Source: Cheilinus undulatus (taxonomy: Eukaryota > Chordata > Actinopteri > Labriformes > Labridae). Taken from it: a stretch of DNA of 64,000 nt. This document shows, one piece after another, positions 7,701 to 46,594 of this stretch; within the stretch, counting starts at the first letter, position 1, and each line of letters begins with the position of its first letter. The stretch lies in contig NC_054881.1 of assembly GCF_018320785.1 (NCBI RefSeq), positions 43,872,424 to 43,936,423 of the forward strand. Reading direction: 5' to 3'. Position numbers and translations under genes: made by a program. A model generated the notes under the pieces. The model searched no databases and was not told where the DNA came from. It saw nothing but the letters and a program-made list of their open reading frames with translations.

Positions 7701-10700
7701 TATGCAGTATGCAAACAAATGCGAAAGTTGCAGTCTGCCAAAAATACCCGGATGACGTACAGATTCAGGAAAATTTCACAGTATGCATCGGACCAGTCTG
7801 CTTCGCCTACTGTTACCCACAATGCAAAGCGCCAGGTCAGAGTTCGTAATGGCGGAGAGCGGCGAAAATTTCACAAATGGAAGTGCCACTTTTTATCTTT
7901 ACCTTTTTAACATGTACTACAGTGAAGCAAGTTGTAATAGGGCCGCTGTTGTTTTTGTTCTGCTGTTACGGCTCCTAACAGCCAGAAAGGTGCTGTCAAG
8001 TGTCTTTCACTGCACTATACATGCTAAGCTAAAAACAGCGGCGATAACAATCCCCCAAAATCAAATAAAAACACTTCCCAGATTTTTTCCTGTACCTAAA
8101 TGGACGGAAACACTGTAGCGTCGTTTAATATTGACCAGGGTATGACATACTTCTGTATACCGGAAACCAGCTAAACCGGGCCAAGCGTGCTACACAGTAA
8201 CATCCGACTGGCAGTCATACTGCATACTACTGTTGAACACAGTACGCGGTGTGCAGTACATACTGCATACTGCGTTTGGCAGGAGTATGTAGTAGGTCAG
8301 TTCAAAAACAGCCTTGGTCTTGCATGCTGATTTTCAAACACATTAAAAAATATTTCCTTCTTTTGCACGGAAACAGCTTCTCCAACATTAAATATTTCCT
8401 CTTTCTGGAAGAACCTGCAGATAAGCCTCTGTACACTCTCTTTACTGCTGACTCTATTCAGAACTAACCACCATCATTGATCAGCCATCGTAGCGTTGAA
8501 GCAGCGTCACCAGCCAGGTTACTTACTGTTCTCTCTGACCAGACAAAACTCTAAGGTGCTCTGAGTCTCGAGTGTGGAGTCCAGGTCTACGGCGACGTTT
8601 GGCTCCGTCTGCTTCTCCAGTCGGTACATCGGACCTGATGGAGGACCAAGGTTAGGAGGACCAAGGTTAGGAGGACCAAGGTTAGGAGGACCAAGGTTAG
8701 GAGGACCAAGGTTAGGAGGAAAAGCATGAAACAGACATGAAACTGTTTGTTGTAAACTTGCAGAATCAGTTGGATTTTCAGTGAGGCCTTCCTCCTACTT
8801 CCTTATCTACCTGCAGCCCAGAGGATGAAACTATCTCTGCTGCACAGATACCATGGTTTTAAAGGGACAGGAGACGTTCAGGGCTGATGTTACGGCTCTA
8901 CGCTCAGACCAGGACCCCATAGCTGGGTAAGGTTGCATTCACATCTCCAGCAGACTGTGCTCAGGTACGCATGGATCATGCTCAAATAACCTCTGCACGT
9001 GGACTCAGGCATCTCATCTGAATTGTGTCTGCTCTGGGTTTAGGTCTACCTGGATCTGGGTCCAGGTCCTAAATGTGAATCCAGCCTTACCGTTGAAAAA
9101 CTTCAAGACTTAGAAACAAACTGACCCTGCAGTAGTAAGACGTCCTGATACATAAGGAGGCAGTAAAGGCCCCATCTCTGTCTAAATTCATGTTTTCAGT
9201 GCGTCTGTGACGATTTTACTACGACTGAAGACAGAAATAAAGATTCTGACACAGAAACTCTGCAGAGACGTCGTCCTTGTGTGAAGAGGAGAACAGTAAA
9301 TAATCAATACTCGTCTAAATGTAAATGAGACTACAGGCCTGTCCATGCTGTCTGAGTGGGTTTAGTTATATTAATAACATTTTTAATGCATGGCTCCTCC
9401 TGAGACAGGATGAGGAGAAGAAACAGACACAGGACTCAGCTTCAAACGCAGAGAAACGGAGAAACGGAGCGCGTTTTATCTGATGTCTCAGGCGTTCTGA
9501 CGGCATCTCTTCAAACTAAAATAAAGCTCAGCTCTTATTTTGTTTTCCACAGAGAATATTCTGAAATAAACCTCCTCCCTGCGACAGAGCCGACCCAACC
9601 AGAGAGAAAAACTTTACTTTATGATCTTAAAGGTCTTGAATGAGGTAAAGGATACCTGTGTGATTACCTGAGCCTTTCTGGGAGCCTTTCCTCTTCTTCA
9701 GAGCTTTCTGGAGGATTTCCTTCATGGTGACCTTCAGACTGTCCACGGGGATCAGAGAGAAACCATGAGCAGCGTTTCTACCGGGACAGAGGGAGGGAAG
9801 GAGTTATTCATTTCTCTCTGAGATTACACTGACACTGGAAAGGGTTAAAAACATTCAGTTACTGGGCAGAAGCTGCCAAAATAAGAGCGTTTAAATCTAG
9901 TTACCCTGTTTTACTTAAATAAGATCTGAATGATTAATCCTACTGCTATAACTAGCTACGTGTCTGCACCGTTGCTAAGTTCATACTTGGAGTGTCACAG
10001 ATCTCTGCAGAGTCAGGACTTGAGGTTAAAAACATGTTAGTGGTGAGAAGAACGAAGCCTGGGCTTCAGCAGGAGAACCAGAAATGCCACATCGTTAATG
10101 TGAGAATAAAGGTTTTCGATCTAAACTCACATTCTGACAAACAGCGACTGTCTGGAGGCCAGACCCGGGGACGAGTATTTCTCCACCAGGGCCAGCGTGC
10201 TGAAGCCAAACTTGTGGATCGGCTCGTTGGAGTCCAGAGGAGGAAAATCCGTGTCGACCTCGCCGTCGTCCTCGGCGATGTGGAGGCAGTACGCGTTCAC
10301 ATTCTCGCTGTGGAGAGGGATGGGAGAAGAGTTAGTTACCCAGACTGCCGTGGGGTTCTGAAGCTCACCGCGTCTGTACTGACTTGAGTTTGGGTTCTCG
10401 CCCCTCGCTCGTGTACTGCCAGCAGATGAGTCCGATGAGGTCGTGGACGCGGGCGTTGGCGATGGTCACCACCGTCATGGGATGAAGTTTCTCCTGAGCC
10501 ATCTGCATGGAGAGGTAGACGTCGATCTTCTTGGTAGCCGTGGTTCCGATGTGGCCCTGAGAGGTGAGGAGGTGGAGCTCCATTCAGTAACAGACGCTGT
10601 GAAGAACACTCAGGATAAAGACTCACATCAAAACGTGTCAAAGCTCACCTTTCCGTCAAACTTGGAGTATTCGTTGAAGGGGTTGTTGAGCTGCTGAGGA

Positions 10701-13700: not shown

Positions 13701-15256
13701 CTTTGTTATTTTATTTATTAATAAAAGACAGTAACCAACCTGACTGGGAGGATGTCCTCTCTTTCCACTGAATATTTTTACATTTGATTTGGTTCTGCCG
13801 TTCCTTCCTTAACCTTTCCAGTCTTTGGGCTGAAAAGAAAGAACAAGTTTTAAATTTCTGTCTCAAATAAAGAAGCAAAATAATCCACCAGAAACCTGTA
13901 AAAATAAAAATATCATTATGAGAGAACACTGAGTGTTATAAAAGAAGAAGACATTCATCTCTACGTAGTCCTGCTGTCCGTCTGCAGCCTCCCTGTAGAC
14001 ACAGAAACTAACATGCATCTCTGATCATACACAGCTTTCATCCCTCTGGTCTTACCAGCAGCCCCGGGTCGCTCTCGGCTGTCGCGTTGGAGTCCTGATA
14101 AAAAAAATCCACCACAGGTCAGAGCTGAAGTCTGAAATCTACAACCACAACCCAAAACCATGACCAAAAACTCCACCAAACTCCAGAGAGACTAAAGGAG
14201 ACGGGTGGTCTACCTTTGGACTCCCTCTGCCACCAAGAACTCATTTACCTTCATATTCAAGCAGCTTCATCTATTGGAGCAGATTCTCCCTTTAACTCGC
14301 CATTTAAACACCCACATCCATCTCAGAGCCAGAACACTCTCATTATTCAGAGTTTATTAGAACGCTTAACCTCCAGATTAAAGAGGACAGCACAGACGGG
14401 TTATAGTAAGACAGGATCTAACAGGATCTGGATCTGGTCCAGTGTTATTAATAATTATTCATTAGAACCAACGCTACAGACATTAGACTGAACTCTAACT
14501 ATCATAACTCCATGAAGGACCCGTCACAGCAGATGCATGTGATGTCTGAAGGATCAAACATGAGGGGAAAGCTGACATACATGAACCTGGGACTCAGCAG
14601 CCTGGGTTCATGTCTAGCTGCTGCTCTTCTCTCTCTGCTCAGTCTGGACCCTGACCCACCGTCCTGTCCCGTTCATGAATTCATGTCCATAAAGCGTCGA
14701 CCTTGTTGATCAGAATCAACCTGAATTTGACTGATCGTTTATCTGGCAGACATTAATCAGTTAGTTTGATCTGGTACCTCACAGCCATTAGTCCAGCAAT
14801 CCTACCCCCACCTTCAGAGTCGGACGGTTTGATTCAGTCTTATTTAATCACAGACCAGGATTAGACACACAGACCCCCAACAACAGCAGCAGGACGGGCT
14901 CTCTGGTACCCCCATCTGAGTCAGGGGAGCCTGCCCTGCTGGGACACGTCCCGCACACCATGATGATAGTTACCTGTGTTTGAGCGCCGCCGGATGCCAA
15001 AGTCCCAGCTGGAGGTGATGTCCATGGACTGGGAGAGGTCGCAGGCGTGATTGTCGGTCACACTGGTACCCCCCTCGCTCAGAGAACCCGAACCCGTCGA
15101 CCCACAGCTGCTGCCGGGCACCAGAGCCAGCTGGCACTTCTCCAGATCCACATCCTGGTCGATCAGGACCATCTCACACATCCCCGTGTCGTCGCTGGTC
15201 ACATGAGACTGCCTGATGTGGGCCAGAATAATGGCTGGATTGTCCAAGAAAGCCAT
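4621..15256 (-). CDS. mapkap1: mapkap1 / SIN1, TORC2 subunit (11 coding exons, complete)
   Basis: This is the target-of-rapamycin complex 2 subunit SIN1, a scaffold that recruits AKT, SGK and PKC to mTORC2. Coding exons on the minus strand are 15256-14974, 13829-13740, 10797-10649, 10556-10384, 10307-10131, 9777-9668, 8634-8527, 7393-7253, 5930-5793, 5394-5297 and 4743-4621. All introns are GT-AG, and phases join without a frame break to give 1590 nt, that is 529 aa (human 522). The N-terminus [18 protein letters not shown] is near-identical to vertebrate SIN1. By family knowledge the CRIM domain covers about residues 147-275, the Ras-binding domain about 287-361 and the PH domain about 390-495. 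The segment after residue 40 (VDLEK) is fish-specific and rich in Ser and Gly. It is separated from mvb12b by a head-to-head intergenic region. No break or missing domain was seen. Confidence 0.96.
5297..5394 (-). CDS. mapkap1: mapkap1 coding exon 10 (end of PH domain)
   Basis: It reads [20 protein letters not shown], then [12 protein letters not shown], and ends in phase 0. Confidence 0.95.
5793..5930 (-). CDS. mapkap1: mapkap1 coding exon 9 (PH domain)
   Basis: It reads [20 protein letters not shown], then [20 protein letters not shown], nearly identical to vertebrate SIN1. The acceptor is CTTTTTTCAG and the donor is CCCGA|GTGAG. Confidence 0.95.
6177..6201. repeat. Short TCCTGG repeat
   Basis: Four tandem hexamers in mapkap1 intron 5930-7393. 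The AT-rich sequence after it (6220-6830) shows nothing else. Confidence 0.5.
6832..7200. mobile_element. MITE copy in mapkap1 intron
   Basis: It begins ATTAAAGGTCACAAACTATG and contains GGGGCGGAGTCAGAGAGCTC and CATTAACATTTAAAGCCACA. A second copy of the right half lies at about 50150-50345, inside an mvb12b intron. A C14-15 homopolymer sits inside (about 6902-6916). It is nonautonomous and has no transposase. Confidence 0.6.
7253..7393 (-). CDS. mapkap1: mapkap1 coding exon 8 (start of PH domain)
   Basis: It reads an acidic linker [13 protein letters not shown], then [20 protein letters not shown], which enters the PH domain. It ends in the split Gly codon at CAGCTAG|GTAC. Confidence 0.95.
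7642..8313. mobile_element. 672-bp MITE with terminal inverted repeats
   Basis: The left end GGCCGATTTC...CTACTACA and the reverse complement of the right end share 19 of 26 bases. Repeated TAGTATGCAGTATGC words occur near both ends, typical of fish hAT-like nonautonomous elements. Open frames inside (7719-8118) match no protein I recognise. Target duplications could not be resolved. Confidence 0.55.
8527..8634 (-). CDS. mapkap1: mapkap1 coding exon 7 (end of RBD)
   Basis: It reads [20 protein letters not shown] and ends LEFCLVREN. The acceptor lies directly against a 15-bp tandem repeat (8641-8715) that supplies the whole pyrimidine tract. Confidence 0.95.
8641..8715. repeat. 15-bp minisatellite at the mapkap1 exon 7 acceptor
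   Basis: Five copies of GAGGACCAAGGTTAG. On the mapkap1 strand each copy reads CTAACCTTGGTCCTC, which supplies both a branch-point-like CTAAC and pyrimidines just before the AG at 8636-8635. Confidence 0.9.
8740..9660. other. mapkap1 intron, no recognised element
   Basis: Nothing was recognised. The frame at 9410-9643 has no domain. Confidence 0.4.
9668..9777 (-). CDS. mapkap1: mapkap1 coding exon 6 (Ras-binding domain)
   Basis: It reads [20 protein letters not shown] and ends KRKGSQKGS. This falls in the ubiquitin-like Ras-binding domain. The acceptor is CCCGGTAG and the donor is TCAG|GTAATC. Confidence 0.94.
10131..10307 (-). CDS. mapkap1: mapkap1 coding exon 5 (end of CRIM, start of RBD)
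   Basis: It starts with the split Asn codon and reads [20 protein letters not shown], then the [17 protein letters not shown] segment. The exon ends in phase 2 at AGAAT|GTGAG. Confidence 0.95.
10384..10556 (-). CDS. mapkap1: mapkap1 coding exon 4 (CRIM domain)
   Basis: It encodes [15 protein letters not shown] and ends ...[15 protein letters not shown], the most conserved part of CRIM. The donor is CTCAA|GTCAGT, less canonical than the others. It is needed to keep the frame into the next exon, and the intron is only 76 bp. Confidence 0.94.
10649..10797 (-). CDS. mapkap1: mapkap1 coding exon 3 (start of CRIM domain)
   Basis: It reads through [20 protein letters not shown], which leads into the CRIM substrate-recruiting domain. 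The exon ends in phase 0 at GGAAAG|GTGAG. Confidence 0.95.
10975..11330 (-). mobile_element. Degenerate LINE fragment (CR1/L2-type)
   Basis: The minus strand contains the words CAGAGACGGCGTTGTGTGAG, GCCGGGCTGCAGGCTAGGC, CCGTACCGAGCATCTTT and GGCTGCAGG in the order I recall from the 5' part of fish CR1/L2-type LINE ORF2. In-frame stops show it is dead. It lies in the large mapkap1 intron 10798-13739. Confidence 0.5.
12241..13017. repeat. 60-bp minisatellite, 13 copies
   Basis: The period is exactly 60 bp. The unit contains GGCGTTTGCGTCCTAGTGAG and ATCTTTGTTGTTGGTCCACA. Copies differ by a few point changes, and the first is the most diverged. It lies inside a mapkap1 intron. Because 60 is a multiple of three, it creates short open frames (12404-12589 on minus, 12967-13155 on plus) that are not genes. 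Confidence 0.95.
13018..13739. other. mapkap1 intron, no recognised element
   Basis: Unique-looking sequence. The open frame at 13475-13684 has no recognisable domain. Confidence 0.4.
13740..13829 (-). CDS. mapkap1: mapkap1 coding exon 2
   Basis: The acceptor is TTTCTTTTCAG. It completes the split Ala codon and reads [17 protein letters not shown], the basic helical stretch conserved in SIN1. The donor is TCAG|GTTGG. Confidence 0.95.
14974..15256 (-). CDS. mapkap1: mapkap1 coding exon 1 (start codon exon)
   Basis: This exon holds the ATG at 15256-15254 and 94 codons plus one base. It includes the conserved N-terminus and ends in [16 protein letters not shown], a SIN1 hallmark. The donor is CAG|GTAACT. 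The 5' UTR acceptor is not certain. A CAG just before AGGAAATGG (about 15262) and a better pyrimidine-tract CAG near 15331 are both possible. Confidence 0.95.
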
Positions 15257-18167
15257 TTCCTCTGCTTTACGAGGAGTGGCTCAGAGCTGTGGGTGCTTTC
15301 TTCTTCTCTCACTCCCTTTCCTGAAAGCCAGAGGACCCTTCACGTCCTTCAGTATCTCTGCGAGAGCGTTAAAGTGGAGGCTGGTGACGAGTGGAGAGCA
15401 GCCATCTTTTCCATCTCCTTCTCTCTGTTATTCTCTCTGATCCGAGGCAGGAAACCAGCAGGAACCTGTCAGAGGAGAGATGATGGTTACAGCTCTGAGT
15501 GTGTGAGAAGAACCTTTAAAGCTGGAGAAATGTTCTCCCAACATTTATGATCCTCAGGGTTCTACAGTCTGGGGATCATGACGGGGCAAATCTCCTGTTT
15601 CAACCTGGTTTTTATGGTCTGGTTTACAGTCTCCATGAACCGAACGTGGTTTCTTTTATAAGGGGGTCAAACATCTTAGTATTAGTGACACAATCTTTTT
15701 AAAAGGATAAAATCTCTGTTACTTAAATGATCTACAGACAGGGACCACTGAGTATTGGCCTGGCCAGTTATTGGTGCAGATATTCAGCATTTGGCCCGCT
15801 ACCTGTACCTGGATTAAACTTTACTGATCGATCAGAGAGTGTGCTGCTTGGCTCTGTTTTAATCTTCAGTCTCACCTGAGCTCAGCACGACACCTTTAAC
15901 CATCTCCATTCAGTACCTGCAGAACCAAAGTCTCACCTGCCTCAAGTCCAAGACGATCCGTTAACTCAACGACAAACATCTCATTCTAGAGGAGACTTTC
16001 ACAATAAAAGTCCCAGTTATTAGGTTGTTGAAATTTTCAGTCATAGTACAGTAAAATGTTGTAAATATTTTAAATAATATTCCTTTTTGGAGGTTTATAA
16101 TGTCCTTGTGTTTGAGCACTAACCAGCTACCGTGCGTCTTCATTTGCTGCTTTTCCTGTTTGTTTGTGAGCGGCCGTCCTCACTGAAAGAAGCACTTTCC
16201 ATTTTAAACACCATCTTCAAATACTCTGAAATATTCCAGCATCACAGAACGAGTTCTTATTGGCTCAAAGTTCACAAACCGGTTTAGATCAGACAAATGA
16301 AGCAGGAAATAAACATGGATCTGTGGTGGTTTCTAATCTGTTGACAGAGGAAGGGTGGCGTTATTTTGCTGTTCATACTTTGTGGTCAACGATAGCAGAA
16401 GTGAAACAGAGTTAAATTACACACAGCGCAGGCCCATCCAGCTCAGAACCAATCAGCAACCTCACACTGATCAGTCCTGGGGATGATGATTGGTACTGAG
16501 GGCTTCAGCTGGTCGGAGTCGAGAGATGTGAGGATTTATATGAAGGCCCAGACCTCCTGATGACTGTATAGACAGGCAACCCTAGACATGACACTCCAAG
16601 CGTACTTGACATTTTGGTTCGATCCCTACCCCGCCCTCAGACTGCGCCCTGCCTCGTGTTCACGTCTAGAGGTAGGGTGTCTCCGTACCTCTCCCCCTGC
16701 CACTAAAGCGACTCTTGAAAATAAGGAGTAGGGAGATAGAAATGGGACTGAGCTTCACAAACAACTGGAACTTTCCTCTTTAGTCTAAAAGTGTGGTCCG
16801 CTGGAGCCCACAGACTTTCCTCCTTCTTCTCAGCCAAGCCTCTGTGCTTTCACATAGACTGCTGGAGTTAATACTAACCAGAGCGCCTGTCACTTGACTA
16901 CAGTTGTGCTTTCATATGATGTTTGCTGATAGAGATTAGAGCCTTGTGAACGGTCAGCCTGAAGCAGAAAGCTGTGAGTTCATTACAGTAGAAACCTGTG
17001 CCTCTATGACCTGATGAACAGGACTTTTAATCAGAACTCCAGTCATTTAACAGATCATTAAACTTTAGCGTGTTTGAGCGTGAACGTCAGCGGGGCGACC
17101 CCAGAGTCACAACAAGGAAGGGCTCAGGTGTTTCTCCAACGCTGACGTAGGTCACTGACTCCTTTAGTGTTAGACGTCGCTGTGTTGACCGCTAAATACT
17201 CGTCCTCTTCATGAGCAGAAGTATGACGCTCCGGAGTGTTTACACTGAGAACATGAAGCTGTTTGTCATGTAGACATTCAGAGAGAGCTGAGTAAGGGCA
17301 AAACAATCCAAGCCTACTGAACATGAGCCTGGCTGAGATTAGGCCTGCCTTTTAAAACGTCGCTATGTGATATTTCCAAACTCATTTTATCAGGTACAGA
17401 TTCATAAACAGCTTCACTGTAAAGAACACCGAGTGTCTGCTGTCAAAGAGAGGCTGAGTCAGTCAGCAGAGAGAGGAGAGGGTGCTCTGGTAGTCGTCTA
17501 ATGTTTGGAGCTTCATTAACAAGTTCAGCGCTCACAGAGGGCCTCAACCATGCCTGATGGTACAGATGTATATTTGCTGAAATTTAAGGCTGATAGGATT
17601 TAACCTGATGATTACCAGGATGGTGATCTGTTTTAGTGTTTTTCTTCTTTTAAACTGCTGACAATTCCATATAATGAGCAATAATCATTAACCAGATGTT
17701 GAAAAGTCAAGTTCAAGTACTCCTGGGAAAAGGGAGCAAAGCTCTCAGACTTAGGGCATTTCCTGACTATTTTACAGCCAGAATAACTAAATATGTCCAA
17801 ATCACCATTTTTAGACTCAGCAGGTAAAGGGTTAAATCACCCAGGGGTCAGGCACACTCTTTCATTTAGTCTAAATCATGGAAAAATCATTGACAATCCA
17901 CCAGTATCAGAGCACGCCCCATGAATTCGGATGATTTAGAAAGTGTGATTGAATATTTGTCCATGGATTATTCCTCTCTCTCACTACTGCTGTATGTTAA
18001 AGTGGTTCTTTACACTAAAGCTCAATAATAACATTAACTGTATTACTCTAAACCCCCTGCTTTAATAAAGAATTAAAGAATTTTAGATTTTAACAGTTAG
18101 ATAAGATAAATGTGGGATGTGATTGGAAAACAAAAGTACTACTATTTAATCTGAATCATAACCAACC
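15257..18167. other. mapkap1 intron 1, unique part
   Basis: There is no exon, repeat array or RNA gene that I can support. A segment with CpG and a possible MITE look (16560-16740) was noted but not assigned. The 5' UTR part of the start exon lies just upstream of 15256. Confidence 0.4.
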
Positions 18168-21100
18168 GTTCCTAGTAAATCTGTGGTTTTATTACATTTA
18201 TTTAACAGTTCCTAGTAAATCTGTGGCTTTGTTAAACAGTTCCTAGTACATCTGTGGCTTTGTTAAACCGTTCCTAGTACATCTGTGGCTTTGTTAAACC
18301 GTTCCTAGTAAATCTGTGGTGTTATTACATTTATTTAACAGTTCCTAGTAAATCTGTGGCTTTGTTAAACCGTTCCTAGTACATCTGTGGCTTTGTTAAA
18401 CCGTTCCTAGTAAATCTGTGGTGTTATTACATTTATTTAACAGTTCCTAGTAAATCTGTGGCTTTGTTAAACCGTTCCTAGTACATCTGTGGCTTTGTTA
18501 AACAGTTCCTAGTAAATCTGTGGTTTTATTACATTTATTTAACAGTTCCTAGTAAATCTGTGGCTATGTTAAACCGTTCCTAGTACATCTGTGGCTTTGT
18601 TAAACCGTTCCTAGTAAATCTGTGGTGTTATTACATTTATTTAACAGTTCCTAGTAAATCTGTGGCTTTGTTAAACCGTTCCTAGTACATCTGTGGCTTT
18701 GTTAAACCGTTCCTAGTAAATCTGTGGCTTTGTTAAACCGTTCCTAGTACATCTGTGGCTTTGTTAAACCGTTCCTAGTAAATCTGTGGCTTTGTTAAAC
18801 CGTTCCTAGTAAATCTGTGGCTTTGTTAAACCGTTCCTAAAAAATCTGTGGTTTTATTACATTTATTTAACAGTTCCTAGTAAATCTGTGGTTTTATTAC
18901 ATTTATTTAACAGTTCCTAGTACATCTGTGGCTTTGTTAAACCGTTCCTAGTAAATCCGTGGCTTTGTTAAACCGTTCCTAGTAAATCTGTGGTTTTATT
19001 ACATTTATTTAACAGTTCCTAGTAAATCTGTGGTTTTATTACATTTATTTAACAGTTCCTAGTAAATCTGTGGTTTTATTACATTTATTTAACAGTTCCT
19101 AGTAAATCTGTGGTTTTATTACATTTATTTAACAGTTCCTAGTAAATCTGTGGTTTTATTACATTTATTTAACAGTTCCTAGTACATCTGTGGCTTTGTT
19201 AAACCGTTCCTAGTAAATCCGTGGCTTTGTTAAACCGTTCCTAGTAAATCTGTGGTTTTATTACATTTATTTAACAGTTCCTAGTACATCTGTGGCTTTG
19301 TTAAACCGTTCCTAGTAAATCCGTGGCTTTGTTAAACCGTTCCTAGTAAATCTGTGGTGTTATTACATTTATTTAACAGTTCCTAGTACATCTGTGGTTT
19401 TATTACATTTATTTAACAGTTCCTAGTAAATCTGTGGCTTTGTTAAACCGTTCCTAGTACATCTGTGGCTTTGTAAAACCGTTCCTAGTACATCTGTGGC
19501 GTTGTTAAACCGTTACATTTATTTAACAGTTCCTAGTAAATCTGTGGCTTTGTTAAACCGTTCCTAGTACATCTGTGGCTTTGTTAAACCGTTCCTAGTA
19601 AATCTGTGGTGTTATTACATTTATTTAACAGTTCCTAGTAAATCTGTGGCTTTGTTATACCGTTCCTAGTACATCTGTGGCTTTGTTAAACAGTTCCTAG
19701 TAAATCTGTGGTTTTATTACATTTATTTAACAGTTCCTAGTAAATCTGTGGCTATGTTAAACCGTTCCTAGTACATCTGTGGCTTTGTTAAACCGTTCCT
19801 AGTAAATCTGTGGCTTTGTTAAACCGTTCCTAGTAAATCTGTGGCTTTGTTAAACCGTTCCTAAAAAATCTGTGGTTTTATTACATTTATTTAACAGTTC
19901 CTAGTAAATCTGTGGTTTTATTACATTTATTTAACAGTTCCTAGTAAATCTGTGGCTATGTTAAACCGTTCCTAGTACATCTGTGGCTTTGTTAAACCGT
20001 TCCTAGTAAATCTGTGGCTTTGTTAAACCGTTCCTAAAAAATCTGTGGTTTTATTACATTTATTTAACAGTTCCTAGTAAATCTGTGGTTTTATTACATT
20101 TATTTAACAGTTTCTAGTAAATCTGTGGTTTTATTACATTTATTTAACAGTTCCTAGTAAATCTGTGGCTTTGTTAAACCGTTCCTTGTAAATCTGTGGC
20201 TTTGTTAAACCGTTCCTAAAAAATCTGTGGTTTTATTACATTTATTTAACAGTTCCTAGTAAATCTGTGGTTTTATTACATTTATTTAACAGTTCCTAGT
20301 ACATCTGTGGCTTTGTTAAACCGTTCCTAGTAAATCCGTGGCTTTGTTAAACCGTTCCTAGTAAATCTGTGGTTTTATTACATTTATTTAACAGTTCCTA
20401 GTAAATCCGTGGCTTTGTTAAACCGTTCCTAGTACATCTGTGGCTTTGTTAAACCGTTCCTAGTAAATCTGTGGTTTTATTACATTTATTTAACAGTTCC
20501 TAGTAAATCTGTGGTTTTATTACATTTATTTAACAGTTCCTAGTAAATCTGTGGCTTTGTTAAACCGTTCCTAGTAAATCTGTGGTGTTATTACATTTAT
20601 TTAACAGTTCCTAGTACATCTGTGGCTTTGTTAAACCGTTCCTAGTAAATCTGTGGCTTTGTTAAACCGTTCCTAGTAAATCTGTGGCTTTGTTAAACCG
20701 TTCCTAGTAAATCTGTGGCTTTGTTAAACCGTTCCTAGTACATCTGTGGCTTTGTTAAACCGTTCCTAGTAAATCTGTGGCTTTGTTAAACCGTTCCTAA
20801 TAAATCTGTGGTTTTATTACATTTATTTAACAGTTCCTAGTAAATCTGTGGTTTTATTACATTTATTTAACAGTTCCTAGTAAATCTGTGGCTTTGTTAA
20901 ACCGTTCCTAGTACATCTGTGGCTTTGTTAAACCGTTCCTAGTAAATCTGTGGCTTTGTTAAACCGTTCCTAGTAAATCTGTGGCTTTGTTAAACCGTTC
21001 CTAAAAAATCTGTGGTTTTATTACATTTATTTAACAGTTCCTAGTAAATCTGTGGTTTTATTACATTTATTTAACAGTTCCTAGTAAATCTGTGGTTTTA

Positions 21101-24100
21101 TTACATTTATTTAACAGTTCCTAGTAAATCTGTGGCTTTGTTAAACCGTTCCTACTACATCTGTGGCTTTGTAAAACCGTTCCTAGTACATCTGTGGCTT
21201 TGTTAAACCGTTCCTAGTACATCTGTGGCTTTGTTAAACCGTTCCTAGTACATCTGTGGCTTTGTTAAACCGTTCCTAGTAAATCTGTGGTTTTATTACA
21301 TTTATTTAACAGTTCCTAGTAAATCTGTGGTTTTATTACATTTATTTAACAGTTCCTAGTAAATCTGTGGCTTTGTTAAACCGTTCCAAGTACATCTGTG
21401 GCTTTGTTAAACCGTTCCTAGTAAATCTGTGGTTTTATTACATTTATTTAACAGTTCCCAGTAAATCTGTGGCTTTGTTAAACCGTTCCTAGTACATCTG
21501 TGGCTTTCTTAAACCGTTCCTAGTACATCTGTGGCTTTGTTAAACCGTTCCTAGTACATCTGTGGCTTTGTTAAACCGTTCCTAGTACATCTGTGGCTTT
21601 GTTAAACCGTTCCTAGTAAATCTGTGGCTTTGTTAAACCGTTCCTAGTACATCTGTGGCTTTGTTAAACCGTTCCTAGTAAATCTGTGGTTTTATTACAT
21701 TTATTTAACAGTTCCTAGTAAATCTGTGGTTTTATTACATTTATTTAACAGTTCCTAGTAAATCTGTGGCTATGTTAAACCGTTCCTAGTACATCTGTGG
21801 CTTTGTTAAACCGTTCCTAGTACATCTGTGGCTTTGTTAAACCGTTCCTAGTAAATCTGTGGCTTTGTTAAACCGTTCCTAGTACATCTGTGGCTTTGTT
21901 AAACCGTTCCTAGTACATCTGTGGCTTTGTTAAACCGTTCCTAGTACATCTGTGGCTTTGTTAAACCGTTCCTAGTAAATCTGTGGCTTTGTTAAACCGT
22001 TCCTTGTACATCTGTGGTTTTATTACATTTATTTAACAGTTCCTAGTAAATCTGTGGCTTTGTTAAACCGTTCCTAGTACATCTGTGGTTTTATTACATT
22101 TATTTAACAGTTCCTAGTAAATCTGTGGTTTTATTACATTTATTTAACAGTTCCTAGTAAATCTGTGGTTTTATTACATTTATTTAACAGTTCCTAGTAA
22201 ATCTGTGGCTATGTTAAACCGTTCCTAGTACATCTGTGGCTTTGTTAAACCGTTCCTAGTACACATGTGGCTTTGTTAAACCGTTCCTAGTAAATCCGTG
22301 GCTTTGTTAAACCGTTCCTAGTACATCTGTGGCTTTGTTAAACCGTTCCTAGTAAATCTGTGGTGTTATTACATTTATTTAACAGTTCCTAGTAAATCTG
22401 TGGCTTTGTTAAACCGTTCCTAGTACATCTGTGGCTTTGTTAAACAGTTCCTAGTAAATCTGTGGTTTTATTACATTTATTTAACAGTTCCTAGTAAATC
22501 TGTGGCTATGTTAAACCGTTCCTAGTACATCTGTGGCTTTGTTAAACCGTTCCTAGTAAATCTGTGGCTTTGTTAAACCGTTCCTAGTAAATCTGTGGCT
22601 TTGTTAAACCGTTCCTAAAAAATCTGTGGTTTTATTACATTTATTTAACAGTTCCTAGTAAATCTGTGGTTTTATTACATTTATTTAACAGTTCCTAGTA
22701 AATCTGTGGCTATGTTAAACCGTTCCTAGTACATCTGTGGCTTTGTTAAACCGTTCCTAGTAAATCTGTGGCTTTGTTAAACCGTTCCTAAAAATTCTGT
22801 GGTTTTATTACATTTATTTAACAGTTCCTAGTAAATCTGTGGTTTTATTACATTTATTTAACAGTTCCTAGTAAATCTGTGGCTTTGTTAAACCGTTCCT
22901 AGTACATCTGTGGCTTTGTTAAACCGTTCCTAGTAAATCCGTGGCTTTGTTAAACCGTTCCTAGTAAATCTGTGGTTTTATTACATTTATTTAACAGTTC
23001 CTAGTAAATCTGTGGCTTTGTTAAACCGTTCCTAGTACATCTGTGGCTTTGTAAAACCGTTCCTAGTACATCTGTGGCGTTGTTAAACCGTTCCTAGTAA
23101 ATCCGTGGCTTTGTTAAACCGTTCCTAGTACATCTGTGGCTTTGTTAAACCGTTCCTAGTAAATCTGTGGTTTTATTACATTTATTTAACAGTTCCTAGT
23201 AAATCTGTGGTTTTATTACATTTATTTAACAGTTCCTAGTAAATCTGTGGCTTTGTTAAACCGTTCCTAGTAAATCTGTGGTGTTATTACATTTATTTAA
23301 CAGTTCCTAGTACATCTGTGGCTTTGTTAAACCGTTCCTAGTAAATCTGTGGCTTTGTTAAACCGTTCCTAGTACATCTGTGGCTTTGTTAAACCGTTCC
23401 TAGTAAATCTGTGGTTTTATTACATTTATTTAACAGTTCCTAGTACATCTGTGGCTTTGTTAAACCGTTCCTACTACATCTGTGGCTTTGTAAAACCGTT
23501 CCTAGTACATCTGTGGCTTTGTTAAACCGTTCCTAGTACATCTGTGGCTTTGTTAAACCGTTCCTAGTACATCTGTGGCGTTGTTAAACCGTTCCTAGTA
23601 AATCCGTGGCTTTGTTAAACTGTTCCTAGTACATCTGTGGCTTTGTTAAACCGTTCCTAGTAAATCTGTGGTTTTATTACATTTATTTAACAGTTCCTAG
23701 TAAATCTGTGGTTCTATTACATTTATTTAACAGTTCCTAGTAAATCTGTGGCTTTGTTAAACCGTTCCTAGTACATCTGTGGCTTTGTTAAACCGTTCCT
23801 AGTAAATCTGTGGTTTTACTACATTTATTTAACAGTTCCCAGTAAATCTGTGGCTTTGTTAAACCGTTCCTAGTACATCTGTGGCTTTGTTAAACCGTTC
23901 CTAGTACATCTGTGGCTTTGTTAAACCGTTCCTAGTACATCTGTGGCTTTGTTAAACCGTTCCTAGTACATCTGTGGCTTTGTTAAACCGTTCCTAGTAA
24001 ATCTGTGGCTTTGTTAAACCGTTCCTAGTACATCTGTGGCTTTGTTAAACCGTTCCTAGTAAATCTGTGGTTTTATTACATTTATTTAACAGTTCCTAGT

Positions 24101-27100
24101 AAATCTGTGGTTTTATTACATTTATTTAACAGTTCCTAGTAAATCTGTGGCTATGTTAAACCGTTCCTAGTACATCTGTGGCTTTGTTAAACCGTTCCTA
24201 GTAAATCTGTGGTTTTATTACATTTATTTAACAGTTCCTAGTAAATCTGTGGTTTTATTACATTTATTTAACAGTTCCTAGTAAATCTGTGGCTTTGTTA
24301 AACCATTCCTAGTACATCTGTGGCTTTGTTAAACCGTTCCTAGTAAATCTGTGGCTTTGTTAAACCGTTCCTAGTACATCTGTGGCTTTGTTAAACCGTT
24401 CCTAGTAAATCTGTGGCTTTGTTAAACCGTTCCTAGTAAATCTGTGGCTTTGTTAAACCGTTCCTAGTACATCTGTGGCTTTGTTAAACCGTTCCTAGTA
24501 AATCCGTGGCTTTGTTAAACCGTTCCTAGTACATCTGTGGTTTTATTACATTTATTTAACAGTTCCTAGTAAATCTGTGGTTTTATTACATTTATTTAAC
24601 AGTTCCTAGTAAATCTGTGGCTTTGTTAAACCATTCCTAGTACATCTGTGGCTTTGTTAAACCGTTCCTAGTAAATCTGTGGCTTTGTTAAACCGTTCCT
24701 AGTAAATCTGTGGTTTTGTTAAACTGTTCCTAGTACATCTGTGGCTTTGTTAAACCGTTCCTAGTACATCTGTGGCTTGGTTAAACCGTTCCTAGTACAT
24801 CTGTGGCTTTGTTAAACCGTTTCTAGTTCATCTGTGGCTTTTTTAAACCGTTCCTAGTACACATGTGGCTTTGTTAAACCGTTCCTAGTACATCTGTGGC
24901 GTTGTTAAACCGTTCCTAGGAAATCCGTGGCTTTGTTAAACCGTTCCTAGTACATCTGTGGCGTTGTTAAACCGTTCCTAGTACATCTGTGGCTTTGTTA
25001 AACCGTTCCTAGTACATCTGTGGCTTGGTTAAACCGTTCCTAGTACACCTGTGGCTTTGTTAAACCGTTCCTAGTACACATGTGGCTTTGTTAAACCGTT
25101 CCTAGTGAATCTGTGGCTTTGTTAAACCGTTCCTAGTACATCTGTGGCTTTGTTAAACCGTTTCTAGTACATCTGTGGCTTTGTTAAACCGTTCCTAGTA
25201 CACATGTGGCTTTGTTAAACCGTTCCTAGTGAATCTGTGGCTTTGTTAAACCGTTCCTAGTACATCTGTGGCTTTGTTAAACCGTTCCTAGTACATCTGT
25301 GGCTTTGTTAAACCGTTCCTAGTACATCTGTGGCTTTGTTAAACCGTTCCTAGCACATCTGTGGCTTGGTTAAACCGTTCCTGTGGCTTGGTTAAACCGT
25401 TCCTAGTACATCTGTGGCTCAATTAAACCGTTCCTAGTACATCTGTGGCTTTGTTAAACCGTTCCTAGTACATCTGTGGCTATGTTAAACCGTTCCTAGT
25501 ACATCTGTGGCTTGGTTAAACCGTTCCTAGTTAATCTGTGGCTTTGTTAAACCGTTCCTAGTTAATCTGTTGCTTTGTTAAACCGTTCCTAGTACATCTG
25601 TGGCTTTGTTAAACCGTTCCTAGTACATCTGTGGCTTTGTTAAACCGTTCCTAGTACATCTGTGGCTTTGTTAAACTGTTCCTAGTACATCTGTGGCTTG
25701 GTTAAACCGTTCCTAGTACATCTGTGGCTTTGTTAAACCGTTCCTAGTACATCTGTGGCTTGGTTAAACCGTTCCTAGTACATCTGTGGCTTTGTTAAAC
25801 CGTTCCTAGTGAATCTGTGGCTTTGTTAAACCGTTCCTAGTACATCTGTGGCTTGGTTAAACCGTTCCTAGTACATCTGTGGCTTTGTTAAACCATTCCT
25901 AGTACATCTGTGGCTTTGTTAAACTGTTCCTAGTACATCTGTGGCTATGTTAAACCGTTCCTAGTACATCTGTGGCTTGGTTAAACCGTTCCTAGTACAT
26001 CTGTGGCTTTGTTAAACCGTTCCTAGTACATCTGTGGCTTGGTTAAACCGTTCCTAGTACATCTGTGGCTTTGTTAAACCGTTCCTAGTACATCTGTGGC
26101 TTTGTTAAACCGTTCCTAGTACATCTGTGGCTTTGTTAAACCGTTCCTAGTACATCTGTGGCTTTGTTAAACCGTTCCTAGTACATCTGTGGCTTGGTTA
26201 AACCGTTCCTAGTACATCTGTGGCTTGGTTAAACCGTTCCTAGTACATCTGTGGCTTGGTTAAACCGTTCCTAGTACATCTTTGGCTTTGTTAAACCGTT
26301 CCTAGTAAATCTGTGGCTATGTTAAACTGTTCCTAGTACATCTGTGGCTTGGTTAAACCGTTCCTAGTGAATCTGTGGCTTTGTTAAACCGTTCCTAGTA
26401 CATCTGTGGCTTTGTTAAACCGTTCCTAGTACATCTGTGGCTTGGTTAAACCGTTCCTAGTAAATCTGTGGCTTGGTTAAACCATTCCTAGTACATCTGT
26501 GGCTTTGTTAAACCGTTCCTAGTACATCTGTGGCTTTGTTAAACCGTTCCTAGTACATCTGTGGCTTGGTTAAACCATTCCCAGTACATCTGTGGCTTTG
26601 TTAAACCGTTCCTAGTACATCTGTGGCTTTGTTAAACCGTTCCTAGTACATCTGTGGCTTTGTTAAACCGTTCCTAGTACATCTGTGGCTTTGTTAAACC
26701 GTTCCTAGTACATCTGTGGCTTTGTTAAACCGTTCCTAGTACATCTGTGGCTTTGTTAAACCGTTCCTAGTACATCTGTGGCTTTGTTAAACCGTTCCTA
26801 GTACATCTGTGGCTTTGTTAAACAGTTCCTAGTACATCTGTGGCTTTGTTAAACCGTTCCTAGTACATCTGTGGCTTTGTTAAACCGTTCCTAGTACATC
26901 TGTGGCTTGGTTAAACCGTTCCTAGTAAATTTGTGGCTTGGTTAAACCGTTCCTAGTACATCTGTGGCTTTGTTAAACCGTTCCTAGTACATCTGTGGCT
27001 TTGTTAAACCGTTCCTAGTACATCTGTGGCTTTGTTAAACCGTTCCTAGTAAATCTGTGGCTATGTTAAACCGTTCCTAGTACATCTGTGGCTTGGTTAA

Positions 27101-30100
27101 ACCGTTCCTAGTGAATCTGTGGCTTTGTTAAACCGTTCCTAGTACATCTGTGGCTTTGTTAAACCGTTCCTAGTACATCTGTGGCTTGGTTAAACCGTTC
27201 CTAGTACATCTGTGGCTTTGTTAAACCGTTCCTAGTACATCTGTGGCTTTGTTAAACCGTTCCTAGTACATCTGTGGCTTTGTTAAACCGTTCCTAGTAA
27301 ATCTGTGGCTATGTTAAACCGTTCCTAGTACATCTGTGGCTTGGTTAAACCGTTCCTAGTACATCTGTGGCTTGGTTAAACTGTTCCTAGTACATCTTTG
27401 GCTTTGTTAAACCGTTCCTAGTAAATCTGTGGCTTTGTTAAACCGTTCCTAGTACATCTGTGGCTTTGTTAAACCATTCCTAGTACATCTGTGGCTTTGT
27501 TAAACCGTTCCTAGTACATCTTTGGCTTCGTTAAACCGTTCCTAGTACATCTGTGGCTTCGTTAAACCGTTCCTAGTACATCTGTGGCTTGGTTAAACCG
27601 TTCCTAGTACATCTGTGGCTTTGTTAAACCGTTCCTAGTACATCTGTGGCTTGGTTAAACCGTTCCTAGTACATCTGTGGCTTTGTTAAACCGTTCCTAG
27701 TACATCTGTGGCTTTGTTAAACCGTTCCTAGTACATCTGTGGCTGTGTTAAACCGTTCCTAGTAAATCTGTGGCTATGTTAAACCGTTCCTAGTACATCT
27801 GTGGCTTGGTTAAACCGTTCCTAGTACATCTGTGGCTTGGTTAAACTGTTCCTAGTACATCTGTGGCTTTGTTAAACCGTTCCTAGTAAATCTGTGGCTT
27901 TGTTAAACCGTTCCTAGTACATCTGTGGCTTTGTTAAACCGTTCCTAGTACATCTGTGGCTTGGTTAAACCGTTCCTAGTACATCTGTGGCTTTGTTAAA
28001 CCGTTCCTAGTACATCTGTGGCTTTGTTAAACCGTTCCTAGTACATCTGTGGCTTTGTTAAACCGTTCCTAGTACATCTGTGGCTTGGTTAAACTGTTCC
28101 TAGTACATCTGTGGCTTTGTTAAACCGTTCCTAGTAAATCTGTGGCTTTGTTAAACCGTTCCTAGTACATCTGTGGCTTTGTTAAACCGTTCCTAGTACA
28201 TCTGTGGCTTTGTTAAACCGTTCCTAGTACATCTGTGGCTTTGTTAAACCGTTCCTAGTACATCTGTGGCTTTGTTAAACCGTTCCTAGTACATCTGTGG
28301 CTTGGTTAAACCGTTCCTAGTACATCTGTGGCTTTGTTAAACCGTTCCTAGTACATCTGTGGCTTTGTTAAACCGTTCCTAGTACATCTGAGGCTTGGTT
28401 AAACCGTTCCTAGTACATCTGTGGCTTTGTTAAACCGTTCCTAGTACATCTGTGGCTTTGTTAAACCGTTCCTAGTACATCTGAGGCTTGGTTAAACCGT
28501 TCCTAGTACATCTGTGGCTTGGTTAAACTGTTCCTAGTACATCTGTGGCTTTGTTAAACCGTTCCTAGTAAATCTGTGGCTTTGTTAAACCGTTCCTAGT
28601 ACATCTGAGGCTTGGTTAAACCGTTCCTAGTACATCTGTGGCTTTGTTAAACCGTTCCTAGTACATCTGTGGCTTTGTTAAACCGTTCCTAGTACATCTG
28701 TGGCTTTGTTAAACCGTTCCTAGTACATCTGTGGCTTTGTTAAACCGTTCCTAGTACATCTGTGGCTTGGTTAAACCGTTCCTAGTAAATCTGTGGCTTG
28801 GTTAAACCGTTCCTAGTACATCTGTGGCTTTGTTAAACCGTTCCTAGTACATCTGTGGCTTTGTTAAACCGTTCCTAGTACATCTGTGGCTTTGTTAAAC
28901 CGTTCCTAGTACATCTGTGGCTTTGTTAAACCGTTCCTAGTACATCTGTGGCTTTGTTAAACAGTTCCTAGTACATCTGTGGCTTTGTTAAACTGTTCCT
29001 AGTACATCTGTGGCTTTGTTAAACTGCTCCTAGTACATCTGTGGCTTGGTTAAACCGTGCCTAGTAAATTTGTGGCTTGGTTAAACCGTTCCTAGTACAT
29101 CTGTGGCTTTGTTAAACCGTTCCTAGTACATCTGTGGCTTTGTTAAACCGTTCCTAGTACATCTGTGGCTTTGTTAAACCGTTCCTAGTAAATCTGTGGC
29201 TATGTTAAACCGTTCCTAGTACATCTGTGGCTTGGTTAAACCGTTCCTAGTGAATCTGTGGCTTTGTTAAACCGTTCCTAGTACATCTGTGGCTTTGTTA
29301 AACCGTTCCTAGTACATCTGTGGCTTGGTTAAACCGTTCCTAGTACATCTGTGGCTTTGTTAAACCGTTCCTAGTACATCTGTGGCTTTGTTAAACCGTT
29401 CCTAGTACATCTGTGGCTGTGTTAAACCGTTCCTAGTAAATCTGTGGCTATGTTAAACCGTTCCTAGTACATCTGTGGCTTGGTTAAACCGTTCCTAGTA
29501 CATCTGTGGCTTGGTTAAACAGTTCCTAGTACATCTTTGGCTTTGTTAAACCGTTCCTAGTAAATCTGTGGCTTTGTTAAACCGTTCCTAGTACATCTGT
29601 GGCTTTGTTAAACCATTCCTAGTACATCTGTGGCTTTGTTAAACCGTTCCTAGTACATCTTTGGCTTCGTTAAACCGTTCCTAGTACATCTGTGGCTTAG
29701 TTAAACCGTTCCTAGTACATCTGTGGCTTTGTTAAACCGTTCCTAGTACATCTGTGGCTTTGTTAAACCGTTCCTAGTACATCTGTGGCTTTGTTAAACT
29801 GCCTAGTACATCTGTGGCTTTGTTAAACTGCTCCTAGTAAATCTGTGGCTATGTTAAACTGTTCCTAGTACATCTGTGGCTTTGTTAAACCGTTCCTAGT
29901 AAATCTGTGGCTTTGTTAAACCGTTCCTAGTACATCTGTGGCTTGGTTAAACCGTTCCTAGTACATCTGTGGCTTTGTTAAACCGTTCCTAGTACATCTG
30001 TGGCTTTGTTAAACCGTTCCTAGTACATCTGTGGCTTTGTTAAACCGTTCCTAGTACATCTGTGGCTTTGTTAAACCGTTCCTAGTACATCTGTGGCTTG

Positions 30101-30929
30101 GTTAAACCGTTCCTAGTACATCTGTGGCTTTGTTAAACCGTTCCTAGTACATCTGTGGCTTTGTTAAACCGTTCCTAGTACATCTGTGGCTTTGTTAAAC
30201 CGTTCCTAGTACATCTGTGGCTTTGTTAAACCGTTCCTAGTACATCTGTGGCTTTGTTAAACCGTTCCTAGTTCATCTGTGGGTTTGTTAAACTGCTCAG
30301 TACATCTGTGGCTTGGTTAAACCGTTCCTAGTACATCTGTGGCTTTGTTAAACCGTTCCTAGTACATCTGTGGCTTTGTTAAACCGTTCCTAGTACATCT
30401 GTGGCTTTGTTAAACCGTTCCTAGTAAATCTGTGGCTATGTTAAACCGTTCCTAGTACATCTGTGGCTTGGTTAAACCGTTCCTAGTGAATCTGTGGCTT
30501 TGTTAAACCGTTCCTAGTACATCTGTGGCTTTGTTAAACCGTTCCTAGTACATCTGTGGCTTGGTTAAACCGTTCCTAGTACATCTGTGGCTTTGTTAAA
30601 CCGTTCCTAGTACATCTGTGGCTTTGTTAAACCGTTCCTAGTACATCTGTGGCTGTGTTAAACCGTTCCTAGTAAATCTGTGGCTATGTTAAACCGTTCC
30701 TAGTACATCTGTGGCTTGGTTAAACCGTTCCTAGTACATCTGTGGCTTGGTTAAACTGTTCCTAGTACATCTTTGGCTTTGTTAAACCGTTCCTAGTAAA
30801 TCTGTGGCTTTGTTAAACCGTTCCTAGTACATCTGTGGCTTTGTTAAACCATTCCTAGTACATCTGTGGCTTTGTTAAACCGTTCCTAGTACATCTGAGG
30901 CTTGGTTAAACCGTTCCTGTGGCTTGGTT
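18168..30929. repeat. 12.8-kb satellite of 31-bp and 40-bp units
   Basis: The 31-bp unit contains GTTCCTAGTACATCTGTGG, then CTTTGTTAAACC. The 40-bp form keeps the first 19 bases and replaces the end with TTTTATTACATTTATTTAACA. From 18.2 to about 24.6 kb the two forms are interspersed. From about 24.7 kb to the right edge only the 31-bp form occurs, with CTTGG and CTATG variants and a few truncated copies (25379, 29800, 30297 and the last unit). From length and unit size there are roughly 380-400 copies. TAG and TAA words in the unit keep all frames closed. It lies in intron 1 of mapkap1 if the first exon is at 31.3 kb. Confidence 0.97.
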
Positions 30930-31260: not shown

Positions 31261-31365
31261 CTGTTCGGAGCAGCAGGGAGCTTTAAACATGATGAAAATA
31301 CTCTACTCGTAATTTCTGCAGATGGTCAGAGCGATCGGCGCCGGTTTGATCTGCTAAGCTCGTTA
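31261..31365 (-). other. mapkap1: Candidate mapkap1 noncoding first exon
   Basis: A strong donor CCGAACAG|GTGAGTG lies 16 kb upstream of the coding start on the same strand. It sits about 130 nt downstream of a TATA-like box. The 5' edge is a guess, about 27-32 nt below that box. It contains an upstream ATG followed by ten open codons to the donor. The ATG lies within the last 30 nt of the exon. The link to mapkap1 is inferred from strand and position only; transcript data would decide it. Confidence 0.45.
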
Positions 31366-31391
31366 GCTGAAGGCTAACATCCCTCAATCTC

Positions 31392-31397
31392 TTTATA
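31392..31397 (-). promoter_or_regulatory. TATA-like box upstream of candidate mapkap1 exon
   Basis: The minus strand reads CCATATAAAGAG, a good TATA match, at a sensible distance upstream of the candidate first exon. The surrounding DNA is CpG-richer than average, with many GCTAGC-type words. Confidence 0.4.
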
Positions 31398-31461
31398 TGG
31401 ACGCTAGCTGCGGCTAGCCTAGCTGCTAAGCTAGCCTCCCTAAGCCATAAAGGTGAGTTAA

Positions 31462-31469
31462 TGACGTCA
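31462..31469. promoter_or_regulatory. Perfect palindromic CRE (TGACGTCA)
   Basis: A full consensus CREB/ATF site lies 65 bp upstream of the TATA-like box on the minus strand, the usual position for a functional CRE. An ETS-type ACTTCCGG (31642-31649) lies further upstream. Together they mark a probable promoter for the minus-strand gene. Confidence 0.5.
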
Positions 31470-31699
31470 TCAAACCTTTGGAAGAGACATCCGAGGAGGA
31501 ACAGAGATCTCCACTGGGCCCCATTTTATCCGTACATAGTCCCAGCACTGACAGAACTCTGCTAAGGATTAATAATCACCTACAGCAACATCACAACACA
31601 AGCTAACCGCTGAGCCCAGCCTGCAGGAAACACTGCCCTTTACTTCCGGTTCAACTCTTCAGAATAAAAGCTCGGAGCGATGTCGTAGATGCAGATAAA

Positions 31700-32340
31700 G
31701 AAATAACCTTCGAACACATGCTTGTAAAAAACAAAAGTTAAACTGAAGTAAACCAAGTCAGATTAAATTAGATAAAAAAAGGACGACACCAAAAACGAAT
31801 AAAATAAATAAAAAAATGAAATGGAATAAAATTGTAAAAATGTATTCAACTCATGTCCTTGTTTCACAAATCAACTCAAATCAAATAATAAATTTAAAAG
31901 GAAAGGAAAAGATGGTGAATCTAAAGAAAGAAATATTATTAAAACTAATGTTTGAACAAAATAAAGTGATGTCGCTGATGCACAAATGAAAAAACTATGA
32001 TGAATAAAATAAAATAAAATAAAATTTAACCAAAACAAGAAAAAATAAAGACAATTAATTTGAATTAGATTCTACAAAAGAAAATAAATGTTTTATTTCA
32101 ATTAGTATTTGCAAAATAGGGATGGCTTTAAATCAAATACAAACAAGTCATGTAGAATAAAATAAAATTAAGTATCAAGTTAAATCAATTTATTACAACT
32201 AATGTTAGTAAAACAGCGAGGTTGCAAATGTAGAAATAAAGCAATATAAAATAAAATAAAATAATGTTGTTAAATCAGATTGAATTGAATTACATTTTTA
32301 GAAAATATTCCAACCAAATTTCATAAAAGTATTTCATGCT
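31700..32340. repeat. AT-rich AAATAAAAT-type simple sequence
   Basis: Degenerate AATAAAATAAAATAA runs (e.g. 32005-32022 and 32245-32262) upstream of the minus-strand promoter. Nothing else was recognised from 32341 to 33610. Confidence 0.6.
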
Positions 32341-33610
32341 AAATTCAAGCAAAGTCAAAAATAGTTCTCATGTCGTTAACGTGCTGCAGTTTTAAAAACA
32401 TCCATTTTAAAAAATTCATACTGAATAAAACTCAGCGAATAATTCCAGGAAGAATCTGAACGCTAACCAACATCAGCATCATGTTCTTAGATACACAGAG
32501 AATCTGTTGCTATGGTTACATCTGATGGTGATTTAAGGGGAAAATATTTCCATAGATACTGAATAAGTCAGATGTCCCTGTGCTGCTCAGAGGAAGAATG
32601 AGTGTTATTTTACAACCATCACCAGAGTGAGATCATTCCTCTGAGCAGAGAGACCAACGCTTCTTTCACACTAGACTGACTCCTTCTTCTCTGCTGCGTA
32701 GAAACACACTTAATATAAAAGTGTCCTAGAGTCCTAAAACCTGCTGCCAGTTGGTTCTTCTTCTGCTTTCCTTGATGACTTTATCAAACATATAAACATG
32801 AATACATATAACCCTGAGGCTGTTCCTGAAGCCGCTGGTTCGTCTGTTTCAGCTTCAGAGCAGAGCTGAAGGTCTGATGTTCATCTGTGACACCTGAAGA
32901 TGCTCCAGCAGCTTCAGAATAAAAGCAAATGTTCAGCCTGGCTTTTACGTTGTACCCATCATTTATAATGAGCATGTATAGATGCTGCTGTGTTTAAAGC
33001 TGACCCAGTGTTTAGTATATCTTAGATGTGATCTTGTTTATCATCCATGCAGCCGCTGGTTTCCATGATTCCCAGTAAAGAGACTCGACCAGCACTTGAA
33101 CTCTGGCCTCAGTCCTCGCTGAGTTTGAGGGATCGGTGTCAGATGTTGTTTCTAGTGTTTGTTTGGAGTCTCAGAGATCCTCCGTCTGATTCACTCTCTA
33201 AAACAAACAGCTGACATGAGTGCAGAGAACAGAAACACTAAACACACCAGGAGCGGCATCGTGTGGCTGGAGGAGGAACTGACTGCATCAGGATTTATTT
33301 TACCACAACACTGTTAACGTGCATTTCACACACACTGCTGCTAATCCCAGCTGGTATCACTGGTGCATGTGCTCTTCATCAGCCAGGTTTCTACAGGCCT
33401 GTTTGGATATCTGGAGCTGAAACTGCTTTATAAGATTCTCCTGACATGACTGAATGATCGTCTTTAACCCTTCACTGGTGGGCTCTGCAGTTTTGGTCTT
33501 AAAGCTTCATCTGACTCTGAAGTGAAGCTTCTCAGTGCAGAAACACAGAAATGAAAGACATTTAAACTAAAAGACATCCTTCATCTACATCTGAACTGTT
33601 TCTACTTCAT

Positions 33611-33872: not shown

Positions 33873-33984
33873 CCACAAACACTTCTACAGAGCAGATGTG
33901 AGCGCTGGTGTGTTTGATCAGAGTGCAGCCAGATTCTTCAGTTCACGGCTGAACCAAAGGTTCAGGTTTCTACTACCTCTCTGT

Positions 33985-34125
33985 GTTTACAGCAATGATT
34001 TCAGGAATGTTCCTGAGCCCATGCAGTGATTTCACTACAGAATCATGCCTGTTTTAATGCAGTGGCCCCTGAGGGCCCCTGAGGGCCCCTTCAGCCTTGT
34101 TGATATTATGGACTGTAGATGCAGG
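33985..34125. mobile_element. Fragment of a dispersed fish element (same family as 59850-60890)
   Basis: It shares ATGTTCCTGAGCCCATGCAG, then CACTACAGAATCATGCCTG and the GGGCCCCTGA repeats, with 60400-60500. Confidence 0.6.
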
Positions 34126-42990: not shown

Positions 42991-42999
42991 ATAGAGTCT

Positions 43000-45900: not shown

Positions 45901-46072
45901 ATTTCCTGCAGGTTTTAGAGTCAGTATTTCCCTGCAGGTTTTAGAGTCTAGAGTATTTCCCTGCAGGTTTTAGAGTCTAGAGTATTTCCCTGCAGGTTTT
46001 AGAGTCTAGAGTATTTCCCTGCAGGTTTTAGAGTCCAGAGTATTTCCCTGCAGGTTTTAGAGTCTAGAGTAT
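43000..46072. repeat. 3-kb array of 29-bp units
   Basis: The unit is TTTTAGAGTCTAGAGTATT followed by TCCCTGCAGG, about 105 copies by length. Common variants are TCTAG/TCCAG/TCTGG and AGAG/ATAG. A small block near 44590-44760 and 45900-45925 carries shortened or diverged units, which suggests junctions between amplification rounds. Every unit has a PstI word CTGCAG. It lies in mvb12b intron 1. Confidence 0.97.
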
Positions 46073-46594
46073 TTCCTTCTCTCTGCTCCAGTCCACATCC
46101 AGCTCTGGGTTTGTGTGCTGGGAGGATGTGGAAGTGATACTGGGAGTCTACTGTCTCAGATCACTGGTCTGCATGCTCCGTTTGTTCTCCAGCCTCAGAC
46201 ACACACATTCATTCACTGACACACACGTCAGTTTGGAGTCAGGCTGCCCTTTATCCTCGCCGTCTTTGTGTGGCGTCCGTGAAAAGAGAACGCTGGTTTT
46301 CATGGAGACGCTGTGCAGGAGGCCTCTGTCGTCCAGGCAGCTTCAAGAGGGTCTCTGCAAATCCCCCTCCTCTTACTGCTGTTTAATATGCTGCTGTTCT
46401 ACAGCCTTCACTTAGAAATGTCAGAGTTGTCTGCACAATAAGAAATACACAAACTACACACAACAACACACACTTTTTATCTAACTCTTCATAAACTTTA
46501 ACTCTGGTTTAAAATGCTTTGAGGCAGGGCGAGCTGCCAGATCCTCACGGCTGAAAAAGTCGAAACTATGACACAATGTGTGTTTGTGTTTCTC

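Follow-up and report, generated by a model that had tools for sequence, protein, structure and literature searches.

A very large two-domain array, probably a minisatellite, in the putative first intron of mapkap1

Overview

The window, the whole 64,000-base stretch of DNA analysed here, contains a tandem array of about 12.8 kb that is probably a very large minisatellite grown in place within the first (5'-UTR) intron of mapkap1. Growth would have proceeded by multiplication of blocks of units, through unequal exchange or replication slippage, with the left and right halves of the array expanding separately. The array would be transcribed and then spliced out together with the intron, and no function would be needed of it.

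Organization of the array

An anchor-based split resolves 392 head-to-tail cores of a 31-bp unit between 18168 and 30912, and Tandem Repeats Finder reports a period of 31 over 18197-30918 (393.5 copies, score 16313). The two-domain satellite of 12.8 kb that an earlier note described from the letters is thus a real array. The window contains no N bases. Among the 391 spacings between cores, 325 measure 31 bp and 62 measure 40 bp, the others being 29 bp (two), 48 bp (one), and 53 bp (one); the last core, which no other follows, was assigned 31 bp by the script. Two domains and a truncated terminal unit can be delineated.

18168..24601, no strand assigned: left domain, 189 units (126 of 31 bp, 62 of 40 bp, one of 48 bp)
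24602..30912, no strand assigned: right domain, 203 units (200 of 31 bp, including the last as set by the script, two of 29 bp, one of 53 bp)
30913..30929, no strand assigned: truncated last unit, following the last core

The mixture of 31- and 40-bp units reported for the left domain is borne out by these counts, and the final 40-bp unit (24562-24601) sets the border at 24.60 kb, close to the earlier figure of about 24.7 kb. In the right domain, described as purely 31-bp, none of the 203 units has the 40-bp form; the departures from 31 bp there are the two 29-bp units and the 53-bp unit. The right 31-bp consensus is GTTCCTAGTACATCTGTGGCTTTGTTAAACC, from which the left 31-bp consensus differs in having A or C, about half each, at position 11. 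The 40-bp consensus is GTTCCTAGTAAATCTGTGGTTTTATTACATTTATTTAACA; as had been proposed, it carries 21 AT-rich bases, TTTTATTACATTTATTTAACA, in place of the 12-base linker CTTTGTTAAACC. Mean pairwise identity is 0.964 for left 31-bp units, 0.976 for left 40-bp units, and 0.951 for right 31-bp units. At the right end, 30899-30929 is identical to the 31 bp from 25363, including a shared internal deletion.

The array has a higher CpG observed/expected ratio (0.70 and 0.67 in the two domains) than its flanks (0.49 and 0.36), with 320 CpG in total and one in the 31-bp consensus (AACCGTT). Two 311-nt samples show no excess RNA stability: their shuffles fold more stably on average (z +0.67 and +1.48), and 76 and 93 of 100 shuffles, respectively, fold at least as well. 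No Rfam family matches the window at the gathering threshold.

Proposed growth by block duplication

The longest runs of identical units span 11 units within the left domain and 13 within the right, compared with maxima of 7 and 9 in 60 shuffles of unit order, whereas the longest run shared between domains is 5 units, inside the null distribution (up to 6 units in shuffles). Each of the 14 runs that reach 6 units or more is confined to one domain. Of 61 distinct unit types, 28 occur in the left domain and 40 in the right, with 7 common to both. The right domain is also somewhat more diverged, with bin means of 0.017-0.034 versus 0.007-0.017 on the left, where each 31-bp unit was compared with whichever of two consensus sequences it resembled more, units of other lengths were excluded, and one left bin extends a few units beyond the border. 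The identical runs, together with the recurrence of the deletion-bearing unit at 25363 and at the right end, fit block duplication in two separately evolving halves.

Other kinds of internal structure were considered and set aside. The resemblance between the two halves of the 40-bp linker is matched in 896 of 5000 shuffles, and an origin by internal duplication is therefore not claimed. A higher-order repeat was likewise rejected: exact unit matches at lags 1-39 in the left domain range around the expected value (0.11-0.21 against 0.161), and in the right domain lags 8 and 15 appear slightly elevated (0.30 and 0.31 against 0.217). Clustering of the 40-bp units is weak (73 runs versus 84 expected, with 63 of 2000 shuffles as low).

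Masked self-comparison within the window reveals no dispersed repeat overlapping 15.2-18.2 or 30.9-33.6 kb, and self-comparison finds no opposite-strand match between the array edges, the places where a tandem array derived from a transposable element would carry element sequence or terminal inverted repeats. The left flank (17000-18250) contains an 18-nt inverted pair whose arms lie 577 nt apart, which was taken as chance.

Probable placement within mapkap1

The array adjoins coding exons of mapkap1, which can be recognized on the minus strand from protein matches. Of ten frames searched against Pfam, four match SIN1 (E 2.1e-21), CRIM (two frames, E 1.6e-15 and 1.9e-11), and SIN1_PH (a segment below the family cut-off); one yields a sub-threshold GETHR match alone, and five have no match. 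A comparison of the N-terminal 94 residues with the PDB finds human-type MAPKAP1 chains (E 1e-31).

14974..15256, minus strand: first coding segment of mapkap1, with the ATG at 15256, identified by protein matches
10368..10583, minus strand: mapkap1 frame with part of the CRIM domain, identified by Pfam
31262..31480, minus strand: putative 5'-UTR exon 1 of mapkap1, bounded by the donor at 31261; the edge at 31480 is arbitrary

Position 15256, which the earlier note took for an exon end, is instead the A of the start codon and no exon edge. Scoring against a donor consensus yields a sole 9/9 minus-strand donor in 15-40 kb, which ends at 31261 and is separated from the array by about 330 bp; three minus-strand donors in this interval reach 8/9. 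Because the 9/9 donor is single, an upstream 5'-UTR exon is likely at this site. The putative exon includes a TGACGTCA box (31462-31469). On the acceptor side, a simple score gives 12 candidates in 15250-18160, among which 15465 was picked by eye and is favoured; 15380 and 15357 lie nearer the ATG. Given the putative exon 1 and this acceptor, the array would make up about four fifths of the intron. The gene identity, the minus strand, and the assignment to intron 1 made in the earlier note are supported by the protein matches and the 9/9 donor, and a 5'-UTR intron containing the array is, on this sequence evidence, well supported but unproven. A very AT-rich stretch (31701-32400; GC 0.18-0.25 in 200-bp windows) lies upstream of the putative exon 1.

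Tandem repeats are abundant in the window as a whole. Twenty-five tandem stretches, merged by hand from Tandem Repeats Finder output, cover 22,554 of 64,000 bases (35%), or 19% of the remainder when the big array is left out. A second large array occupies 42992-46076 (29-bp unit, 107 copies, 95% matches), and a degenerate TAGTTCCT-type array runs from 62493 to the window end at 64000. Two arrays appear, from flanking exon frames read by eye, to lie in other mapkap1 introns: a 70-bp unit at 12242-13017 (11 copies, 94% matches) and a 15-bp repeat at 8640-8720 (5.4 perfect copies). The latter lies a few bases or less from an apparent mapkap1 exon acceptor (exon likewise read by eye), and since its copies are pyrimidine-rich it may act as a polypyrimidine tract. 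Dispersed pairs are found at 33981-34100 and 60384-60505 (93% identical, each with short GGCCCCTGAG tandem copies) and at 6988-7203 and 50132-50340 (80% identical).

AATAAA hexamers in the left domain

The 40-bp units load the left domain with AATAAA hexamers on the sense strand of mapkap1.

18168..24601, minus strand (mapkap1 sense): 115 AATAAA hexamers, with one on the opposite strand

In 100 dinucleotide shuffles of 18164-24640, the sense count averages 10.9 and never exceeds 18. Of the 40-bp units, 52 carry two hexamers and the other 10 carry a single one; the 48-bp unit adds one more, and neither strand of the right domain has any. The strand bias arises because one unit type is repeated. 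For 107 of the 115 hexamers a UGUA occurs in the preceding 60 nt, an uncontrolled count; the 31-bp unit itself carries UGUA. The array contains no minus-strand donor of at least 8/9. Downstream GU content is not raised, the best 12-nt window scoring 6-9 (mostly 7-8) versus a control mean of 8.0; since downstream elements are not enriched, early polyadenylation is put forward as a hypothesis only.

Discussion

Minisatellites, or VNTRs, are tandem repeats with units of roughly 10-100 bp that occupy one locus instead of being dispersed and differ in copy number among individuals, whereas satellite DNA of heterochromatin forms long arrays, often at many loci. The 31- and 40-bp units of this array lie within the size range of a minisatellite. 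An ordinary overgrown repeat is the most likely description. That the array is instead one member, lying beside a gene, of a genome-wide satellite family is unlikely: its size and the homogeneity of its units (pairwise identity 0.951-0.976 within classes) would suit a satellite, but there is no second copy in the 64-kb window, where masked self-comparison finds only 12-bp matches to the unit. A core 19-mer has one single match in each of viral_contigs and genome_contigs, both attributed to chance (by our own estimate, 257 Gb should yield about 4); these matches are uninformative because the two collections include no animal genomes as such and may omit near records. A false expansion or misjoin in assembly is extremely doubtful. 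Exact internal duplicates of 450, 382, and 359 bp are spots at which an assembler could err in length, but the 61 distinct unit types, the mere 4 off-length spacings in 391, the two distinct domains, and flanks that share no repeats within the window all speak against an artefact.

A functional role for the left domain is very unlikely, although it would be compatible with growth by block duplication. The 40-bp units would supply many poly(A) signals in the sense strand of intron 1 at which some transcripts are cut early, so that array length or 40-bp content would tune mapkap1 output. The lopsided hexamer count against its shuffle maximum, the empty right domain, the (uncontrolled) upstream UGUA, and the lack of strong donors within the array are all in keeping with such attenuation. 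Against it, the count follows from multiplication of the hexamers of one unit type, GU content downstream is at the control level, and U1 bound at the 9/9 donor, some 330 bp before the array in the direction of transcription, may afford protection. In the available text of a review, depletion of U1 or of the cap-binding complex leads to premature termination early in first introns (PMC7471841). The strong strand bias might not be harmless, yet a real regulatory effect is held to be improbable. The fullest version of the idea is highly improbable. In it, a 40-bp unit with two sense AATAAA, once gained, would have multiplied across 6.4 kb of intron 1 and turned the left domain into a brake on mapkap1, a core TORC2 gene, that acts by premature polyadenylation and is tunable by length, with output following array make-up.

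Several described arrays are close parallels. According to the portions of PMC4411736 available, a human minisatellite at 16q24.1 near FOXF1 spans 8.7 kb of imperfect 33-bp units and is length-unstable. It resembles the present array in being single, kilobase-scale, of similar unit size, and outside the centromere, and it differs in sequence, in its MLT1D ERVL-MaLR flanks, and in being possibly heterochromatinised; a first-intron position is not among the descriptions in those portions. The TERT intron 6 array VNTR6-1 is intronic with a short unit (38 bp), and its deletion shifted the TERT isoform ratio in two cell lines; as excerpted, it has 24-66.5 units and expands a G-quadruplex, in contrast to the AT-rich linkers and 392 cores here (PMC11830802). 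Introns of the gilthead seabream growth hormone gene hold minisatellites, a fish example in a different gene, as given in part of PMC3045353. The gigantic satellite-bearing introns of Drosophila kl-3 and kl-5 would share with this array the transcription of tandem DNA within introns, but in the sections of PMC6508621 at hand they comprise megabases of simple satellite as against 12.8 kb. A literature search found nothing on this array, which is no proof of absence.

The view that so long an array belongs in heterochromatin fares unevenly. The region is itself rich in tandem arrays and lies among mapkap1 exons. The same excerpts of PMC4411736, however, place most long arrays in pericentromeric and subtelomeric regions, named in contrast to VNTRs of less than 1 kb, and raise the prospect that the 8.7-kb human array may be heterochromatinised. 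This speaks in part for the earlier note, and the ordinary reading may understate the rarity of long arrays elsewhere. Taken as a plain intronic minisatellite, the array is of a known kind and a large instance of it. Were its AATAAA load active, it would offer a natural case for measuring how poly(A)-signal-rich introns are protected, with the right domain, which has the same core unit and no hexamer, as a built-in control.
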